A stretch of DNA of 64,000 bases from Desulfonauticus submarinus. Its GTDB lineage: Bacteria > Desulfobacterota > Desulfovibrionia > Desulfovibrionales > Desulfonatronovibrionaceae. The DNA lies in the NCBI RefSeq assembly GCF_900104045.1, contig NZ_FNIN01000005.1:1-64000 (forward strand), given 5' to 3'. Under the pieces are notes generated by a model. That model ran no database searches. It saw only the letters and a list, made by a program, of their open reading frames with translations, and was not told the origin of the DNA. Of this stretch, positions 58,481 through 62,662 are shown one piece after another (positions within the stretch are counted from its first letter, which is position 1; each line of letters begins with the position of its first letter). The position numbers and the translations under genes are program-made.

Positions 58481-59386
58481 ATGGCTCGCTTAAGCAGAAG
58501 AGGCTTTTTGGCCTGTTTGGGAGCAGCTGGTAGCAGCGTTGCCTTGCCCAAAAAGGCCTCGGCTTGGAAATCGAGGGCTCCTTCAGACCCTTTTGGCTGT
58601 TTGGTTGATGTAACAAGATGTATTGGTTGTAGAAAATGTGAACAAGCCTGTAATGAGGTAAATCATCTTCCTAAACCAGATAAAAGTTTTGAAGATAAAA
58701 CAGTTTTTGATGAGAAACGTCGTCCTAATGCGGAAGAGTTTACTGTAGTTAATAGATATTTTACTGGTAGGTTGCAAGATAAAGAAGGCAATCTTTTACC
58801 TACATATGTGAAAGTTCAGTGCATGCATTGTCAAGATCCTGCGTGTGCTTCTGCTTGTATTACTGGAGCTTTAAGCAAAAAGGAAAACGGTGCAGTGTAT
58901 TATGATGTAAAAAAATGTATTGGTTGTAGATACTGTATGGTAGCTTGTCCTTTTGAGATTCCTGCTTATGAATATTTTGATCCTTTAACTCCTAGGGTAA
59001 GAAAATGTACATTTTGTTTTGAGAGAATTTCTAAAGAAGGAGGAAAACCAGGATGTGCTTCTGTTTGTCCTACTGAAGCATTGACTTTTGGTAAGAGGAG
59101 CGAATTATTAGCCTTAGCTAAAAAAAGAATTAAAGAAAATCCAGGACGATATATAGATCATATTTATGGTGAGTATGAAGCAGGAGGAACGTGTTGGCTT
59201 TATATTTCTGGTGAACCTATGGAAAATCTTGGCCTTCCTCCAGTTCCCAATAGACCTTTGCCAAAACTTACAGAAACCATTCAGTCTGGTTTATTTAGTT
59301 ATTTGTGGTCACCAATAGTTTTATTTGGGGTTTTAGGTGGAATTATGGCTGCAAAAAAACGCAAGGAGGAAGGTCATGAAGAATAA
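58481..59386 (+). CDS. HybA-like Tat-exported iron-sulfur protein
   Basis: A 301-residue electron-transfer subunit. The twin-arginine signal is [14 protein letters not shown]. Four ferredoxin-type clusters are visible: [35 protein letters not shown] and [13 protein letters not shown] with CASVC. A C-terminal membrane helix (about 271-293) holds it to the outer face of the inner membrane, as in HybA. It passes electrons from the membrane quinol-binding partner encoded next to the periplasmic cytochrome encoded third. Confidence 0.92.
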
Positions 59387-60539
59387 ACCTCGTCCTCTAG
59401 ATGTGCCTTTTTGGACTCCTGGTATAATTGTAGCGTTTATTTTAATGCTAGCTGGGATAGTATCTTTATTAGCTAGGTATACAGGAGGTTTAGGTTATGT
59501 TACTAATCTAACTAATAGTTATCCTTGGGGAATTTGGATAGGAATAGATGTGGCTTCTGGTGTTGCTTTGGCTGCTGGAGGATTTACCACTGCATTTTTA
59601 GCTCATATTTTAGGAAAAGAGTTTTACGAACCAGTTACTAGGCCAGCTTTGCTTACAGCAGCGTTGGGATATACTTTTGTTGCCCTGGGAGTTTTTGTGG
59701 ATATTGGGCGGTCTTGGGCTATTTGGAAGCCTATTGTGTTTCAGAATCATACTTCTGCTTTGTTTGAAGTTGCTATGTGTGTAATGACTTATTTAAGTGT
59801 GCTTTGGATAGAATTTATTCCTATAGTAGCAGAGCGATATGGAGATAAATGTTCTCTTTTAAGAGCATTGAATAATTCGTTAAATAAATTTATGTGGATA
59901 TTTATTATTTTAGGAGTTGTGCTTTCCTGTATGCACCAGTCTAGTTTAGGTACTCTTTTACTAATTGCACCAACAAAGCTTTCTTATTTATGGTATACGC
60001 CGATACTGCCATTATTGTTTTTAACCTCTGCGTTTGCAGTAGGTTATCCCATGGTAGTAGTAGAAACTACTATTGCTACAACATCTCTTAAGCTTTCTTC
60101 TGAAATGGATGTCTTAAGTCGCTTATCTAAAATAGTTATACTGTTGTTAGGTATATATATGGCTCTAAAATTGGGAGATTTGATCTACAGGGGTGTTTTT
60201 TTCGACATGTTTAAAGGAACAGGGCAAAGTAATGCCCTTTTAGTTGAGGTTTTATTTGGTGTGGTAATCCCTTGGTTTATGTTGTTATTCTCTAAGGTAC
60301 GCAATTCTAGAAGACTGTTATTTAGTGCTAATTTGCTGATAGTGTTAGGCGTGCTTTTAAATAGGGTAAATGTTTTTATTACAGGCTTTAAACCTTATTT
60401 TGCTCGCACAGCGTATTATCCTTCTGTTGGAGAGATTTTGGTAACAGTTGGTTTTGTAGCGGCTATTTTCTTTTTATATAGGTTATTTGTAACATTGTTT
60501 CCTGTAATTTCTGCTCCAAAGCTAGGAGGTCAAAGATGA
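59376..60539 (+). CDS. HybB/NrfD-like quinol-binding membrane protein
   Basis: A 387-residue membrane protein of the NrfD/PsrC superfamily, HybB group, with about ten transmembrane segments and the [18 protein letters not shown] motif. Such proteins oxidise menaquinol without haem and hand electrons to the Fe-S partner. I placed the start at ATG 59376 because AAGGAGG precedes it; the frame is open to 59337. It overlaps the HybA-like gene by 11 bases and the cytochrome gene by 4 (ATGA), so all three are translationally coupled. Confidence 0.92.
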
Positions 60540-62662
60540 GAAAATATGGATTTACCCTGTTTGGGGGGGTAATAATAGTAATGTTGATGACTTCGCTCTG
60601 TTTTGGAGCGACAAGTTCAGCACCAGCTAAGATCAGAAAAGATTACCATCCAAAACCAGCAGGTTGGGTGGCAAAAGATCATGTAGAGGCCTTAAAAAGG
60701 GCTGCCAAAAAGTATCCTTTTGTGGAAAAGGTTTTTAAAGAAGATTTAATTTTGCGAGAACAGCGTTTTCATAAAAAAGGAATAGGATTAAAGGATTTAA
60801 AACATACTTATATGATACTGAATAGTAAATTAGTAAATACTTATGAAGATAAGTATGGTCCTGTAAAATTTATGCACGGCACCCATGCTAGAACAGTAAA
60901 AGGTAATTGTGCTATTTGTCATCATTATAGTCCTGCTGATGCTCCTGATAAAATTTTGCCTTGTAGGTCTTGTCATAAACAGGCTTTTAATTCAAAGTAT
61001 CCAGAACGATTAGGGTTAAAGGCAGCTTATCATCAAAGATGTATAGGCTGTCATAAAAATATGAAACGCGGCCCTATTGGTTGTAAAACCTGTCATTTAA
61101 AAAATGTCCCAGATCATAAAAAAATTGTGAAATTACCTAAAAATCCTACTCCATTTCAGGTTACCAAGGAGTGTTTAAGGTGTCATGAAGATGCAGGTAG
61201 AGAGATGTTAACTACAGCGCATTGGTTATGGAGAGGACCATCTCCTTATACTGTAAATCACAGGAAATGTATTCATCATGGTAAGGGCACAGATGTGCTC
61301 AACAATGACTGAATATCCATTATCAGCAACGAGGCTCGTTGCACAAGTTGTCATGCTGGATATGGTTGGAAAGATTCTACTTTTGATTTTAAAGATATGA
61401 GTAAGATAGATTGTCTTATTTGTCATGATAGGACAGGTAGTTATAAAAAAGCTCCTCCTAAGGCAGGCATGCCAGATCCAAAAGTTGATTTAGTGTATGT
61501 TGCTCAAAATGTAGGGCAACCTACGCGTAAAAATTGTGGATATTGTCATTTTAGTGGAGGTGGAGGTGATGCAGTAAAGCATGCTGATTTAAATTCCGCA
61601 CTGTTTTGGCCTAAGAGAACTTGTGATGTTCATATGGGGGGATATGGATTTGAATGTATAGACTGTCATCGAACACGACAGCATAAGATCTCAGGACGAA
61701 GTATGTCTGCGCCTGTGGCAGAAGGTGGATTTAGCTGTGAAGATTGTCACTCCAAAAATCCGCATTATGGTAATAACCTTTTGGATCATCATTTAAATAA
61801 ACATTGTGAGACTATTGCATGTAATACATGTCATTCTCCGGTTTATTCTAAATGTGTACCTACTAAAGTGTGGTGGGATTGGTCTACTGCAGGAAATAAA
61901 AAACGAGGAGTTGAAAAAGGTAAATATGGAAAACCAGTTTATCATTTTAAAAAGGGAAGCTTTAGATGGAAAGAGTCTGCTAAACCAGAGTATGCTTGGT
62001 TTAATGGATATGTAAAGCGTATGTTTTTTGGCGATAAAATAGATCCTCGGGCTAAAGGTTTTACAGATAATGATAATTTGACTTTTGAGCAAAAGCAAAA
62101 GCTTGTATTCACTAATATTATTCAACCTGTAGGATCAATAAATGATCCTAACTCTAAAATTACGCCCTTTAAGGTAATGCGGGGTATTCAAGGTGCAGAT
62201 GCAGAATATAGATATTTGCTTGTTCCTCATTTGTTCCCTTATAATAAGGAAGATAAAACAGCATATTGGAAGTCTTTTGATTGGCATAAGAGTTTTGCTG
62301 AAGGTATGAAAAAAGCTGGCTTAAAGTATAGCGGTAAATATATTTGGGTGGGCACAAAAATGTATTGGCGAATAGAGCATGAAGTAATGCCAAAAGAGTT
62401 TGCTCTTTCTTGTGTCCAGTGTCATGAGAGTTTAAAAGGTGAGCGCACTTGTGATAGATGCCATCAGGATAATAGAAATGTTGATTTTAAAAAATTAGCT
62501 TTTAAGGGAACAGATTTTAAATATATGCATATGCAAGGAAGAGATGTAAAGGATCTTATAGGTCAAACTGATTATATTAATTTTAAGGCTCTTGGCTATA
62601 AAGGAGATCCTATTATTTATGGAGGAAGGTTCAAAAAGTTGCCTTTGGGATATAAAAAATAG
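60536..62662 (+). CDS. 13-haem c-type cytochrome: c3-like domain plus octahaem tetrathionate-reductase-like domain; probable selenoprotein (UGA at 61310-61312 read as Sec)
   Basis: A 708-residue periplasmic protein if the in-frame TGA (codon 259) is read through. The signal peptide ends LCFGA. Four CxxCH motifs at residues 125-187 follow a class III (c3) spacing with CAICHH. Then come CLRCH (213), CTSCH (269), CLICH (293), CGYCH (334), CIDCH (374), CEDCH (401), CNTCH (429), CVQCH (626), and one extra CDRCH (639). The segments CTSCHAGYGWKD and CDVHMGGYGFECIDCH match the octahaem tetrathionate reductase family. Read in one frame the protein has no other stop. Homologues, as I remember them, read NNFCIS where this reads NND-U-IS, so the TGA replaces a conserved Cys. 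A SECIS-like hairpin follows at 61326-61342. Alternatives are a recent nonsense mutation or a sequencing error. Likely terminal reductase for a sulfur, selenium or nitrogen compound. Confidence 0.85.
61310..61342 (+). promoter_or_regulatory. UGA codon with candidate bacterial SECIS hairpin
   Basis: The TGA (61310-61312) is followed after 13 bases by a perfect 7-bp stem, GCAACGA with TCGTTGC (61326-61332 and 61336-61342), closing a 3-base apical loop GGC. The loop begins 20 bases after the TGA and opens with G. Both features fall within the published general bacterial SECIS model (loop 16-37 bases from UGA, G in the first two loop positions). The 8-bp inverted repeat is G+C-rich for this genome. 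Confidence 0.7.

Follow-up and report, generated by a model that had tools for sequence, protein, structure and literature searches.

The window analysed here is a 64,000-nt stretch of the Desulfonauticus submarinus genome (contig NZ_FNIN01000005.1, positions 1 to 64,000), towards the end of which three genes follow one another on the forward strand. The first (58481–59386) encodes an HmcB/HybA-like 4Fe-4S dicluster protein, identified by NCBIfam HmcB and Pfam Fer4_11, and the second (59337–60539) an NrfD/HmcC/HybB-like membrane subunit (Pfam NrfD, 60 bits; NCBIfam HybB-type 317 and HmcC 255 bits, both under their cut-offs). These are the presumed electron-transfer and quinone-interacting partners, respectively, of the multihaem cytochrome encoded by the third gene. 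The start at 59337 is that of the longest open reading frame, and the overlap with the gene at 58481–59386 is uncertain. None of the Hmc components reaches its NCBIfam equivalog cut-off (HmcA 60 of 400 bits, HmcB 350 of 420, HmcC 255 of 550). The cytochrome frame (60536–62662) has an AGGAGG a few bases 5' of its start, which overlaps the TGA stop of the membrane-subunit gene as ATGA.

Translation of this third frame reveals a single internal stop, TGA at 61310–61312 (codon 259), followed by 449 codons that remain open to a TAG and carry eight CXXCH motifs, just as the original prediction had described it. The read-through product is 708 residues long, with no further stop or frameshift, and the open stretches that the TGA joins (276 and 449 codons) are by far the longest such same-frame pair in the window when at least 60 codons are required on each side. 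Residues 193–632 score 482.5 bits against the TIGR04315 profile (curated cut-off 375), and phmmer matches the protein to the structurally characterized octahaem tetrathionate reductase (OTR) of Shewanella, 1SP3, with an E-value of 1.7e-117. The eight CXXCH motifs belonging to a TIGR04315 core are present at codons 213, 269, 293, 334, 374, 401, 429 and 626 (61112–62428), and five more lie outside it, making thirteen in all. Four are found in an N-terminal stretch (60602–61111; Pfam Cytochrom_CIII 53.8 bits; HmcA 2e84, E 2e-13), whose final ~80 residues resemble class III cytochrome c (c3) as well as the C-terminal region of HmcA; the thirteenth, at codon 639, falls just past the core. The assignment to the octahaem family made in the original prediction thus stands as far as TIGR04315 membership goes, but the protein is a 13-haem fusion rather than a plain octahaem enzyme. 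From a signal peptide judged by eye we infer a periplasmic location. In comparison with the closest relative (L010), dN/dS is 0.14 before the TGA and 0.06 after it, ratios that are rough given a dS above 1; the low downstream value argues that the part of the frame beyond the TGA is both translated and constrained.

Wherever the flanking sequence sufficed, HmcB-like and NrfD/HmcC-like genes were found directly upstream of the other 13-haem OTRs, and judged by these gene neighbourhoods the operon is conserved within the 13-haem clade.

In the phmmer alignment, codon 259 falls on Cys64 of 1SP3, ten residues ahead of the CXXCH at position 74. The latter corresponds to codon 269, the first of the CTSCH (codons 269–273; 61340–61354; residues 74–78 of 1SP3) that forms the next haem site after residue 259. 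The equivalents of Asp150 and Lys153 are present as well, as Asp345 and Lys348 (61568–61579), both in invariant alignment columns. We take Lys153 of 1SP3 to be the unusual ligand of the catalytic haem, with Cys64 presumably close to that haem. An in-frame UGA matched to Cys in homologues is one of the hallmarks of a bacterial selenoprotein. The original prediction had given a NNFCIS segment that placed the TGA on a conserved Cys, and had raised the idea that a Cys discussed for the Shewanella enzyme might be the same residue; the segment proves correct, homologues do have Cys at this position, and the alignment with Cys64 fits the second suggestion.

The same TGA recurs at codon 259 in independent genomes. 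Among 61 related genomes, 22 hold a homologue, and 12 genes from 11 of these genomes carry one TGA each; in a survey of the phylum, 81 of 395 genomes have a homologue, with 33 TGA cases among the matches listed. Reading 157 loci (153 distinct sequences) at the codon level gives, for the residue-259 column, 94 sequences with Cys, 58 with TGA and a single one with Leu, so that all but one sequence have either TGY or TGA there. Apart from one stray TGA elsewhere in L097, every TGA lies on this column, and for two of the 58 (L171 and L172), which are very distant, the column alignment is less sure. The Leu sequence (L059:10001-11269; codon CTG) is a 13-haem homologue that is otherwise intact. Since many homologues, including one from the window organism's own genus (L024), use Cys, and one uses Leu, the fold does not depend on Sec, and perhaps the reaction does not either.

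Just beyond the UGA, at 61326–61342, lies the hairpin GCAACGA-GGC-TCGTTGC, with a 7-bp stem and a 3-nt loop that starts with G. It begins 13 nt past the UGA, and 20 nt separate the UGA from the loop; a stem-loop with a G in its loop shortly 3' of the UGA is a further hallmark of bacterial selenoproteins. The original prediction of such a stem and loop at SECIS distance is therefore borne out, and codon 259 is the sole codon of the gene with exactly this geometry. Taken by itself, from a single sequence, the hairpin is weak evidence. The window contains 115 hairpins with a stem of 7 bp or more and a loop of 3–8 nt, the single-sequence fold of the region is not unusual (z-score −0.64), and a search of the region against Rfam gave no match; a synonymous-codon null gives P = 0.003. 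We therefore do not take these single-sequence statistics as the main evidence. Comparison with homologues that combine a TGA at the same codon with an identical hairpin moves the observation far beyond chance.

Two types of hairpin emerge from that comparison. Type 1, GCAACGAG(G/T)CTCGTTGC, is found in 29 distinct TGA sequences, that of the window included, and its codons, AAC-GAG-(GCT/TCT)-CGT-TGC, show zero synonymous change across all 29, while the flanking codons vary freely. In the same stretch of the Cys homologues as many as six Arg codons are in use, and the position that is Ala or Ser in type 1 and Cys in type 2 is mostly Pro. In the 61 related genomes the exact type-1 hairpin occurs 12 times, in every case within a TGA-bearing OTR gene, and the reversed control occurs not at all; this exclusive tie is our strongest single result. 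Among the carriers of this TGA and hairpin are two cultured bacteria, Desulfosarcina alkanivorans (L049) and Desulfosarcina cetonica (L045). Type 2, CTGGTGCAGGTGCACCAG, is unrelated to type 1 and serves the same UGA position in 27 sequences (L142, L144-L153 and L155-L170). It reads CTGGTGC-AGGT-GCACCAG, a few members having an AGTT loop, and codes for NWCRCTS, such that the residue ahead of Arg-CTSCH is Cys (NWCRCTSCH), not Pro. We take it to resemble the SECIS of E. coli fdhF. One genome (G191) holds a Sec cytochrome of each type (L132 and L169), and the two hairpins presumably work with one SelB there. A further gene, from a Desulfatitalea MAG (L089:4932-6212), has TGT at the Sec position and yet keeps the complete type-1 hairpin with the same codons; it is apparently a recent Sec-to-Cys reversal with a relic SECIS. 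A partial SelB match is present in the same MAG.

The D. submarinus genome contains all four genes required for Sec insertion: tRNA-Sec/selC (85 bits), SelB (401), SelA (620) and SelD (329) all score above their curated cut-offs. None of the three refuting checks set by the original prediction goes against it: homologues carry Cys, the sel genes are present, and independent genomes repeat the TGA. It likely encodes other selenoproteins too, as SelD itself (G000:C16:22471-23394) and a formate-dehydrogenase-like molybdopterin protein (FdhA; L124, around 1768) carry in-frame TGAs, the latter in a coding context. The in-frame TGA of SelD comes from one analysis only, and a short motif script found no match to a Sec motif in that protein. 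A recoded TGA at a conserved Cys, a hairpin that accompanies it in the TGA genes, and the presence of selA, selB, selC and selD together make it very likely that selenocysteine is inserted at UGA codon 259 of this 13-haem OTR-family cytochrome, with SelB, directed by the hairpin just 3', placing the residue.

Could the TGA simply mark a former Cys gene, inactivated by a nonsense mutation, decayed to a pseudogene, or misread in the assembly? TGA is one substitution away from TGC or TGT, and hairpins of this size are, as noted, common by chance in the window. Such an accident, though, would have to have struck the same codon in the 12 genes of the 11 related genomes and in the 33 matches listed from the phylum survey, leaving the hairpin codons invariant, the rest of the frame free of a second stop or frameshift, and dN/dS at 0.06 beyond the TGA. 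Inactivation is already contradicted by these observations, and we regard its probability as negligible. Read-through of UGA is known in nature, and the residue aligned with codon 259 is Cys, which lends some appeal to decoding as Cys or Trp, by near-cognate suppression or under a changed code, in place of Sec. The gene directly upstream ends in TGA, however, so UGA still acts as a normal stop here, and neither the full Sec machinery of the genome nor the association of the hairpin with TGA genes would be expected from such decoding, which we consider highly improbable.

The UGA might also yield two products: the full-length selenoprotein and, under selenium limitation, a 258-residue pentahaem fragment (the tetrahaem domain plus one haem) that carries electrons in its own right. 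All of the N-terminal four-haem domain is indeed encoded ahead of the TGA. On the other hand, only a single CXXCH precedes the TGA in those 8-haem TGA homologues that were examined, which makes a useful short product no general feature of the family, and we think a dual role for this gene very unlikely. Insertion of Sec into a single, full-length cytochrome is the reading that we develop below.

On this reading, Sec259 would stand in for the conserved Cys represented by Cys64 in the Shewanella enzyme. The putative electron path would link the quinone pool, by way of the NrfD/HmcC-like subunit and the HmcB-like iron-sulfur protein, with the N-terminal tetrahaem domain and the OTR core. The selenolate might attack or polarize the substrate at the catalytic haem, with haem-fed reduction to follow; candidate substrates would be compounds with an S-S or N-O bond, such as tetrathionate, nitrite or hydroxylamine. 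Sec would act there as a nucleophile or as a proton or ligand group. We advance this chemistry tentatively, the substrate and the position of residue 259 relative to the haem being drawn from homology to 1SP3. Were Sec to accelerate a step that Cys also carries out, the repeated exchange of the two residues would be explicable.

Sec and Cys have been interchanged repeatedly: a quick, unrooted tree, built with the hairpin columns left out, requires at least ten Sec/Cys changes. The 13-haem OTRs, with Sec and Cys members and the one Leu member, fall into a single group (SH-aLRT 100), and each of the two hairpin types is spread over two distant groups. Because the tree is unrooted, gains of Sec are indistinguishable from losses, and the recurrence of one hairpin sequence in distant groups may reflect Sec in the ancestor followed by many losses, local gene conversion, or convergence. 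It is perhaps an even call whether the family's catalytic Cys has become Sec more than once, via two SECIS hairpins that are unrelated but serve one and the same residue, each of them overlapping the next haem motif and reshaping the protein (SNEPR to SNE[A/S]R, SNWPR to SNWCR), with frequent reversals from Sec to Cys. If it has, the family would be a natural test of the benefit of Sec to multihaem catalysis.

In most of the well-studied bacterial selenoenzymes the partner of Sec is molybdenum, tungsten, nickel or a second thiol; to our knowledge, hardly any work has been done on Sec next to a c-type haem. The view in the original prediction that no Sec-containing member of the family had been described proves wrong at the level of annotation: a 2026 review of prokaryotic selenoproteomes lists TIGR04315 (WP_331457571.1), the family of the window protein and likewise with one Sec, as a GenBank-annotated selenoprotein family (PMC13188914). 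The entry is silent on Sec motif, SECIS, architecture and function. The main texts of deep-Sep 2025 and Peng 2016 do not mention the family, and the literature that we searched yielded no functional or structural account of a Sec-containing TIGR04315 cytochrome. Within this limited search, the 13-haem Sec form in an HmcB/HmcC-like operon, the equivalence with Cys64, and the two SECIS types appear to be undescribed.

The nearest known systems each share a part of what is seen here. The OTR of Shewanella oneidensis (1SP3), cited in a passage of PMC4911364 as reducing tetrathionate, nitrite and hydroxylamine, has the same core, the conserved Cys64 site, and the residues (Asp150, Lys153) equivalent to Asp345 and Lys348, but it uses Cys, binds eight haems and has no c3-like domain, whereas the window protein has Sec, thirteen CXXCH motifs and an HmcB/HmcC-like operon. 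In the Hmc complex of sulfate reducers, HmcB and HmcC resemble the two partner proteins and the C-terminal part of HmcA resembles the N-terminal domain, yet HmcA has 16 haems and, unlike the window cytochrome, no OTR core. ExtKL (NF040886) is likewise on record as a selenoprotein and is a multihaem c-type cytochrome, but it belongs to a different family. With the Sec and the Cys version of this enzyme both occurring in the same type of operon and among close relatives, what selenium does for a haem-based reductase would be directly testable. A SECIS located within a haem-binding motif also illustrates clearly how a signal in the RNA can constrain the sequence of the protein. Genes with such a TGA are likely to be split or cut short by automatic annotation, and the respiratory capacity of their carriers may accordingly be under-counted.

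The 8-haem Sec forms are found without the HmcB/HmcC-like module. Two of them, the type-2 cytochromes L190 and L191, are flanked by a likely ArsR-type regulator gene on one side and, on the other, by what is likely a membrane gene of the cytochrome b561 type, neighbours that were judged by eye, in these two cases, from the starts of their sequences. The distant L171 and L172, finally, are OTR-like multihaem proteins in which an in-frame TGA falls within the equivalent region (TETYU-APPNTVAGHNW and LHSYU-APPNTVAGHNW) and neither type of hairpin is present; they represent a possible third Sec variant.
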